The position numbers were made by a program, and so were the translations under genes. The notes below the pieces were generated by a model, which was not told where the DNA came from, ran no database searches, and saw only the letters and a program-made list of their open reading frames with translations. A stretch of DNA of 64,000 nucleotides from Enhydrobacter sp. Lineage in GTDB: Bacteria; Pseudomonadota; Alphaproteobacteria; Reyranellales; Reyranellaceae. Where the stretch lies: contig NZ_CP126889.1 in the NCBI RefSeq assembly GCF_030246845.1, forward strand, positions 3,219,001-3,283,000, read 5' to 3'. The stretch's first letter is position 1, and every line of letters begins with the position of its first letter. This document shows, one piece after another, positions 60,102 to 62,105 of the stretch.

Positions 60102-60422
60102 GCCGCCAGTGTCGCCGAAGAGGAGGCGAACGTCACCCGTCCTCGGCAATTCCTGCTACCGCGAGGGGCGCCTGTGAACGGGGATGGCGCGGGCGACGTT
60201 GCCGCGCAACTTGTCGTCCCGGAAGGATGTTCGGCAGGAGGCTTGATTCCTGGCTGGGGTATCACCACCTATCGGCGTCGCCGGACCGGTACCACATGCA
60301 AATGGCATTCCCACCTGCATCCCATCTCCACCTGCATCCGACGTATTCCAGCGGGCCCCACAGAATCCCCGACTGCGTCTGCTAATTCCTGAAACTCCAC
60401 TCGCTGCAACGGAAAGACGCTC
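60102..60422. other. Divergent gap between the racemase and the ion channel genes
   Basis: 321 nt without a supported gene. It holds promoters for both sides. A 12-nt direct repeat CCACCTGCATCC lies at 60311-60322 and again at 60328-60339 (17-nt period), upstream of the channel gene. No clear -35/-10 pair was identified. Confidence 0.4.
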
Positions 60423-61271
60423 GTGCTCGTCCGACTGCAAAGGCTCGTCAACGATCCGAGCCTGGAACGCGTCATTACCGCGCTGATCGTCGTCAATGCG
60501 CTTACCCTCGGACTGGAGACGATCCCTGCGGTCTCCCGGACGTACGGACGGATTCTGTGGGCCATCGACCATGTCATCCTGGCAGTCTTTGCTGTCGAGA
60601 TTGCCGCACGGATCGTGGCGAACCGGCTTGCTTTCCTTCGTGATCCCTGGAGCCTGTTCGATTTTGCGGTGGTCGGAATGGCGCTTGTGCCCGCCACCGA
60701 AAGCTTTTCGGTGCTGCGTTCCTTGCGCGTGCTGCGGGTCCTGCGTCTGGTCTCACGTGTGCCGTCCCTGAAGCGGGTAGTCGGAGGCCTGATCGCTGCC
60801 CTGCCTGGCATGGGCTCGATCATCCTGCTGTTGGCGCTCCTGTTCTACGTGTTCGGGGTGATGGCGACCAAGCTCTACGGCCAGGCCTTTCCCGACCTGT
60901 TCGGAACGCTCGGCCATTCGCTGTTCACTCTCTTCACGATCATGACGCTCGAAGGCTGGGTCGAGGGCGTGGTCAAGCCGGTCTCGGAACGATTCCCCTC
61001 CGCCACGTTCTTCTTCATCCCGTTCATCATAGGAACCACTTTCACGGTGCTGAACCTATTCATCGGCATCATCGTGAACGCCATGCAAGCCGAACATGAG
61101 AAAGTGGAAGCGGCACGGCGCGAAGCGGAGCGGGACGCGTTTGGAGCAGAAACGGAGCCGCTGCTCTCCGAGCTCAAGCACCTCCGGGCGGAACTTGCAG
61201 CACTGCGCAGCGAGGTGGCCGGGCCGGAGGCTCGAACGGCTGCCGATATGAAGCAAACGACTCCGGGTTAG
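60423..61271 (+). CDS. Voltage-gated cation channel (bacterial NaV/CaV-like, single domain)
   Basis: 282 residues from a GTG at 60423. One six-helix ion-transport domain: S4 carries Arg at 99, 102, 105, 108 and 112, spaced by three (RSLRVLRVLR). The pore loop has TLEGWVE at residues 175-181, in the place of TLESW in NaChBac-type sodium channels. S6 ends NLFIGIIVNAMQAEHEK and a charged coiled coil (from about 223) should form the tetramer bundle. The Gly after the filter Glu is unusual among bacterial NaV and may favour Ca2+ (see findings). TerC follows 48 nt later. Confidence 0.9.
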   Translation: MLVRLQRLVNDPSLERVITALIVVNALTLGLETIPAVSRTYGRILWAIDHVILAVFAVEIAARIVANRLAFLRDPWSLFDFAVVGMALVPATESFSVLRSLRVLRVLRLVSRVPSLKRVVGGLIAALPGMGSIILLLALLFYVFGVMATKLYGQAFPDLFGTLGHSLFTLFTIMTLEGWVEGVVKPVSERFPSATFFFIPFIIGTTFTVLNLFIGIIVNAMQAEHEKVEAARREAERDAFGAETEPLLSELKHLRAELAALRSEVAGPEARTAADMKQTTPG

Positions 61272-61319
61272 GCTGCCGCCAGTCGAGGCAGCGCATTATC
61301 AGGGGCATTGGGAGATACG

Positions 61320-62105
61320 ATGAACGATCTGCTCCAGCTCGCTGTCGAGCCGGCCGCCTGGGCTGCGCTGGCGACCTTGATCGCGATGGAAGTGGTGCTC
61401 GGGATCGACAACCTGATTTTCATCTCGATCCTCACCAACAGGCTTCCGGCGGAACACCGAAGCAGGGTAAGGCGGATCGGGATCGGCGGCGCGGTCGTGC
61501 TCCGGCTGGCGTTGCTGGGGACGGTCGCGTTCATCGTGACGCTGACGCAACCAATCTTCACCGCATTCGGGCACGGCTTTTCCTGGCGTGATCTGATCCT
61601 GATCGGGGGCGGGCTGTTTCTCGTCTGGAAAGCAACCAAGGAAATTCATCAGAAGCTCGATCCCGAGCCTGACACCCTGTTTTCCACGCCGGCCAACAAG
61701 GTTCTCGACGCAGCATCGGTAATCGGCCAGGTCCTTGTGCTCGATCTTGTCTTCTCGATCGACAGCATCATTACGGCGGTCGGCATGACCGACGAATTGG
61801 CCATCATGGTCGTTGCCGTGCTCGTGGCTGTCACGCTGATGCTGTGTGCAGCCGAGCCATTGGCGAAGTTCATCGAGGCGAATCCAACCGTCGTGATGCT
61901 GGCCCTGGCGTTCCTCCTCATGATCGGGATGACGCTGATCGCGGAGGGATTTGGAGTGCACGTACCGAAGGGCTACATCTACGCAGCTATGGCCTTCTCG
62001 GCCGGCGTGGAAGCGCTGAACCTTCTTTCGCGAAGAGGTTTGAAAGGCAGCTCGAAGCAGCCGTTCCGCAAGAGCGCGCAATCTCACGAGAGAGATTCTA
62101 CATGA
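61320..62105 (+). CDS. TerC family membrane protein
   Basis: 261 residues, ATG at 61320 with GGGAG five nt upstream; a TTG at 61308 is the only longer start. Seven to eight membrane helices. The paired motifs of TerC are clear: [15 protein letters not shown] in the first helices and [16 protein letters not shown] in the middle, with the acidic residues expected to bind metal. TerC proteins are linked to Mn2+ export, tellurite resistance and metal loading of exoenzymes. Same strand as and close to the channel gene. Confidence 0.92.

Follow-up and report, generated by a model that had tools for sequence, protein, structure and literature searches.

A parallel to the channel reported here is CavMr of Meiothermus ruber, a native prokaryotic Ca2+ channel with the selectivity filter 183-TLEGWVD-189. 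Its preference for Ca2+ hinges on a glycine at the fourth position of the filter (Gly4), and the G4S mutation lowers PCa/PNa to 11.9; Val6 is required for full Ca2+ selectivity, which is reduced by V6T, and Asp7 is dispensable (PMC7041947). CavMr and NavPp belong to the AnclNav group (PMC7041947), and CavMr has an extended, disulfide-bridged L6 loop (PMC10120453). When the whole CavMr filter was placed in NavAb, no current was obtained (PMC7041947). In NavAb itself, Met181, which is networked with Gln172, excludes Ca2+, and M181A variants show PCa/PNa of 0.36-0.47; S178G (LivAb) widens the filter mouth and exposes Glu177, and the double mutant S178G/M181A is Ca2+-permeable but not Ca2+-selective (PMC12919392). 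A structure of NavAb N49K/S178G is available as PDB 9UC3 (PMC12919392). Canonical BacNavs were stated to lack the combination of Gly4 with a polar or acidic position 7 (PMC7041947), and a 2026 paper described Ser178 as highly conserved and CavMr as the sole prokaryotic Ca2+ channel identified (PMC12919392).

The channel gene and its surroundings

In the window, the whole 64,000-nucleotide stretch of DNA that was analysed, an open reading frame runs on the plus strand from a GTG at 60423 to a stop codon ending at 61271. The following features were assigned.

60411 to 60416, plus strand: GGAAAG, a purine-rich, probable ribosome-binding site ahead of the GTG at 60423, as read from the sequence
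60423 to 61271, plus strand: coding sequence of a single-domain 6TM voltage-gated cation channel (BacNav, NavAb/NavMs-type), 282 aa, GTG start
60456 to 60758, plus strand: voltage-sensor domain S1-S4, residues about 12-112, from alignment with NavAb, NavMs and NaChBac and from AlphaFold2 (AF2) helices
within 60456 to 60758, plus strand: N25, E32, D49, F56, E59 and D80, conserved sensor positions, by alignment
60717 to 60758, plus strand: S4 charges R99, R102, R105 and R108 (gating arginines R1-R4) and R112, by alignment
60936 to 60938, plus strand: T172, end of pore helix P1, by alignment
60945 to 60965, plus strand: selectivity filter TLEGWVE, residues 175-181, by sequence reading and alignment
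60945 to 60980, plus strand: filter-to-P2 stretch TLEGWVEGVVKP, 12 residues, T175 to P186
60996 to 61217, plus strand: S6 and cytoplasmic helix, residues 192-265, with conserved pore-lining T206 and N211, by alignment and AF2

The original prediction of a voltage-gated channel with a TLEGWVE filter was borne out: the filter reads exactly so at T175-E181 (residue numbers that coincide with NavAb numbering), and voltage gating is supported by the S4 arginines and a match to the Ion_trans family (PF00520, 142.8 bits, E=1.3e-41; Pfam). The phmmer scores against NavMs and NavAb were 230 and 225 bits. The features that mark the BacNav superfamily are all present, namely a single Ion_trans domain, S1-S6, a P1-filter-P2 arrangement, at least four spaced S4 arginines and S2/S3 counter-charges. 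R99, R102, R105 and R108 fall at the positions that the gating arginines occupy in NavAb, NavMs and NaChBac, and alignment identified D49, F56, E59 and D80 as the counter-charge and constriction residues. Five S4 arginines had been counted and five are literally there, but the fifth, R112, lies at the S4/S4-S5 boundary and is variable among relatives, being present in the TLESWSM relative L004. The protein contains no cysteine. An AF2 monomer model built from 20 relatives (mean pLDDT 79.6), which cannot show a tetrameric filter and was used for secondary structure and fold neighbours, contained S1-S6, P1 at 163-174, P2 at 179-190 and a long S6-cytoplasmic helix, and its top PDB fold matches were NavAb, NavMs and CavAb. 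Against four relatives, pN/pS was about 0.4. A sigma-70 promoter scan gave no match.

The host is an alphaproteobacterium with a genome of 5.44 Mb in one contig, in which there is one BacNav-type channel and one other Ion_trans protein. The latter (L002; G000:C1:3989440-3990108, minus strand) spans a 415-aa frame; its filter, TTTGYGD, is of the potassium type, and towards the C terminus there is a stretch that, read by eye, appears cyclic-nucleotide-binding-like. Beginning 36 bp past the channel gene on the same strand is a TerC-family membrane protein (61308 to 62105, plus strand; PF03741, 154.7 bits), which scored below the curated cut-offs of the YkoY, YjbE and Alx subfamilies. Within the flanks compared, neither this gene, nor the upstream Asp/Glu racemase gene, nor the methionine-synthase-like gene was found beside the channels of relatives, so the neighbourhood was dropped as a functional clue. 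An O-succinylhomoserine sulfhydrylase (metZ-like) look-alike lies beside the channel in 33 of the 82 loci compared, many of them in Hyphomicrobiales and that of the relative L010 included; the window's channel is without this neighbour, which suggests relocation or transfer.

Placement among the bacterial channels

About 280 relatives made up the comparison set. Scanning 84,980 species genomes yielded 98 relatives, and 80 of these were kept; MTLEGWVE was among the seeds, biasing the scan towards that filter, and still the majority of the kept relatives read TLESWSM, with TLEGWVE confined to L010 and two Roseomonas channels (L085, L086). Profile-type searches of 386 genomes of the class and 398 of the phylum provided a sample not seeded on the filter. 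Within the host's family a close homologue is present in only 3 of 75 genomes, the host's own and two others, both of which have the Na+ filter TLESWSM. The window's triplet of Gly4, Val6 and Glu7, which stands where the nearest relatives have Ser4, Ser6 and Met7, also occurs in L010 (66% identical, from the Bradyrhizobiaceae MAG FeB_22) and is thus not a sequencing error.

With the filter omitted, core identity was 66.8%, 64.8% and 63.4% to the TLESWSM channels L004, L011 and L009, 49.8% to NavMs, 44.6% to NavAb and 39% to NaChBac (the last three reference sequences being letter-perfect against PDB chains), and 32-37% to AnclNav-type rows of the alignment. These rows (TLEDWTD/TFEDWTD) were recognised by the NavPp-type filter signature in PMC7041947, and stand in for CavMr and NavPp, which are not themselves among the rows. 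In a careful ML tree of 76 rows, from which the filter columns had been removed, the window's channel (P0001) paired with L010 (support 96/93), and the pair grouped with L004, L009 and L011 (100/94). The AnclNav-type rows fell apart from the window's channel in both this tree and a quicker one. The stretch from filter to P2 is 12 residues long in the window's channel, NavAb, NavMs and NaChBac and 11 in AnclNav-type rows (L251, L255). By identity, tree neighbours and filter-P2 length, the sequence thus places the window's channel with the canonical NavAb/NavMs-type BacNavs; its filter departs from the canonical Na+ form (TLESW, with Ser4 and Met or Ser at position 7), and we regard it as an atypical member, a filter variant of the canonical group.

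The channel shares with NavMs (Magnetococcus marinus) and NavAb (Arcobacter butzleri) the 6TM plan, four S4 arginines, counter-charges, 12-residue spacing and T206/N211; it differs from them in TLEGWVE for TLESWSM, Q172T, the added R112 and, in S6, D219N, which is common to the TLESWSM relatives. The glycine determinant that the original prediction ascribed to a Meiothermus channel was correct, and the parallel with CavMr holds for the filter, which has the same Gly4 and Val6 and differs by one residue; the remainder of the protein is of the canonical type, however, and CavMr cannot simply be extrapolated to it. The disulfide-bridged L6 loop of CavMr, for example, has no counterpart in the Cys-less channel of the window. 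The filters of Cav3 domain I and of CatSper3/4 likewise combine Gly4 with an acidic position 7 (in phmmer alignments, TLEGWVD in Cav3.1/3.2 domain I and TLEGWVE in Cav3.3), but these are eukaryotic heteromeric or 24TM channels, distant in sequence.

That the channel is a true member of the CavMr/AnclNav type, orthologous to CavMr, appears very improbable. The near identity of TLEGWVE and TLEGWVD would fit such an origin, and an AU test did not reject placing five very distant AnclNav-type rows on the branch leading to P0001 and L010 (p=0.47; p=0.41 with NaChBac added), whereas the 63-67% identity to TLESWSM relatives as against 32-37% to AnclNav-type rows, a filter-P2 stretch of 12 residues where AnclNav-type rows have 11, the lack of Cys and the 100/94 support with TLESWSM neighbours all speak for the canonical group. 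Orthology was rejected for want of support from identity, filter-P2 length and tree neighbours, and on the evidence here the CavMr-like filter would represent convergence, not kinship. Because the AU test does not reject AnclNav-type rows at this point, a Ser-to-Gly direction on the branch rests on parsimony and is the parsimonious reading rather than a proven one.

Recurrence of Gly4 and the residues that change with it

Gly4 arises recurrently inside the canonical BacNav group. Of 139 alphaproteobacterial genome-search rows in which the filter Trp was aligned, 29 had Gly4, in filters that included TLEGWVE, TLEGWSD, TLEGWPD, TLEGWAD, TLDGWSG and TLEGWSQ. Seventeen changes involving Gly4 were counted on the careful tree, at least 8 of them forced by well-supported branches, and 22 on the quick tree of 185 rows. 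A single Gly4 clade was rejected (AU p=2e-6), ruling out one old lineage of Gly4 channels, as was a single clade of all TLEGWVE channels (AU p=0.005), so the window and Roseomonas TLEGWVE filters are separate arrivals. Gly4 accompanied by a polar or acidic position 7 does occur in canonical BacNavs, repeatedly, in Alphaproteobacteria, contrary to the statement in PMC7041947; a search of the open-access literature found no description of Gly4 canonical BacNavs.

Gly4 is coupled to the loss of Met7, which was found in 0 of 44 Gly4 rows and in 177 of 191 Ser4 rows; 31 of the 44 have Asp or Glu at position 7. Such row counts exaggerate independence, and a better figure is given by phylogenetically independent pairs, which linked Gly4 with Met7 loss in a ratio of about 7:0 (sign test p about 0.016). 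At residue 172 every one of the 183 canonical Ser4 rows has Gln; the window's channel, L010 and L178 have Thr there, and four other Gly4 rows have Lys. Val6 was seen in five Gly4 rows and no Ser4 row. In the window's channel Q172T, S178G, S180V and M181E have changed jointly on a NavAb-like backbone.

Several other loci were noted in the course of these searches. L127 (G769), whose sisters are the two Roseomonas TLEGWVE channels, combines an acidic position 7 with a retained Ser4 in the filter TLESWAE and is a possible Ser4/Glu7 intermediate of the filter switch. Genome G159 carries three BacNavs (L172, L176, L202), of which two read TLESWSM and the third TLEGWVE, so that a single cell may hold filters of both the Na+ and the Ca2+ type. 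Co-directional adjacent BacNav pairs were found in three genomes of the host's phylum but of another class (G482, G556, G517; L285 597-2345, L286 499-2308, L287 557-2297 on the minus strand); their partners are 44-57% identical, with unlike filters (TMEGWPD or TSEGWPD beside TTEGWPT or TTEGWPS), and may be subunits of a heteromeric bacterial channel. A tandem pair whose members are 55-59% identical and both read TLESWSM (L289 421-2400, L290 500-2380, L291 388-2340) is present in three genomes that belong to a single alphaproteobacterial genus. Adjacent channel genes with filters TFDDWIE and TLEGWAE occur at G304:C198:3970-5587 (L206, L207; L288) in a small alphaproteobacterial genome, and L206 and L207 both lie on very long branches. 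A connection of Gly4 with low-sodium habitats was rejected, as neither ectoine synthase (3 of 29 Gly4 and 9 of 51 Ser4 genomes) nor nqrB (1 of 29 and 4 of 51) differed significantly.

Ion preference

Judged from its conserved anatomy, the channel is predicted to be a voltage-gated homotetramer in which depolarisation would move the four S4 arginines and open the S6 gate. The explanation we favour, and consider rather probable, is that this is a canonical channel in which the Na+-type filter TLESWSM was swapped for TLEGWVE along with Q172T in the pore helix, making it Ca2+-permeable and probably Ca2+-preferring, and that this condition was reached independently of CavMr. Replacement of Met181 would have taken away the residue that bars divalent ions in NavAb; Gly178 would remove the Ser hydroxyls, widen the mouth and expose the Glu177 ring; and Val180 with Thr172 may adapt the packing of P1 against P2. 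Both CavMr-type determinants, Gly4 and Val6, are present in the filter. The original prediction had relied on the added negative charge of E181, an argument that proved weak because the selectivity of CavMr persists without that charge (CavMr-D7M, TLEGWVM, retained PCa/PNa 144; PMC7041947), and the loss of Met181 would be the stronger argument for Ca2+ entry. Taken separately, permeability to Ca2+ appears distinctly likely, while strong preference for Ca2+ is a tentative suggestion. A search of the open-access literature found no electrophysiology for any Gly4 canonical channel, the window's included.

NsvBa is a non-selective cation channel. The window's channel might be another, if the loss of Met181 and Ser178 admits Na+, Li+ and Ca2+ with little preference, and NavAb S178G/M181A, with PCa/PNa 0.47 and PLi/PNa about 1 (PMC12919392), behaves in just this way; relatives with TLDGWSG, TLEGWSQ and TLDGWSN also look as if constraint had been relaxed. 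We nevertheless think this somewhat unlikely, as an acidic residue at position 7 in 31 of 44 Gly4 rows suggests selection over drift, and the second CavMr determinant, Val6, is in the window's filter as well. It is improbable that the channel still conducts monovalent ions, Na+ or Li+, with a NavAb-type backbone setting selectivity and Gly178 merely tolerated. NavAb S178G alone does prefer Li+, with PCa/PNa <0.01 (PMC12919392), but it retains Met181 and Gln172, both of which are altered in the window's channel, and loss of Met181 alone admits Ca2+. The NavAb mutants share with the window's channel the backbone type and Gly178, and the double mutant also lacks Met181, but they have Ser180, Gln172 and no acidic residue at 181, and are Li+-preferring or merely Ca2+-permeable. 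None of the laboratory swaps had S178G, M181E, S180V and Q172T jointly. Weighing against the favoured explanation are the double mutant, which admits Ca2+ without selecting for it, the lack of current from NavAb with the CavMr filter, and the missing counterpart of the CavMr L6 loop. A decaying or non-conducting relic would agree with the patchy distribution (3 of 75 family genomes with a close homologue); we give this very little credence, given an open frame, sensor and gate positions that are all kept, pN/pS of about 0.4 and the same filter in L010.

Returning to the favoured reading of a canonical channel made Ca2+-permeable, we put forward more guardedly the wider proposal that nature repeatedly turned canonical Na+ channels into Ca2+ channels, independently of CavMr, through coupled Met7 loss and Ser4-to-Gly change (here also S180V and Q172T), and so may have solved the problem on which transfer of the CavMr filter to NavAb failed. 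If the channel conducts Ca2+, sibling pairs such as the window's TLEGWVE channel and the TLESWSM channel L011, which are 65% identical, would be natural experiments, showing how few pore changes suffice to turn Na+ channels into Ca2+ channels within a backbone known from crystal structures, and would broaden the case that bacteria admit Ca2+ through voltage-gated channels.
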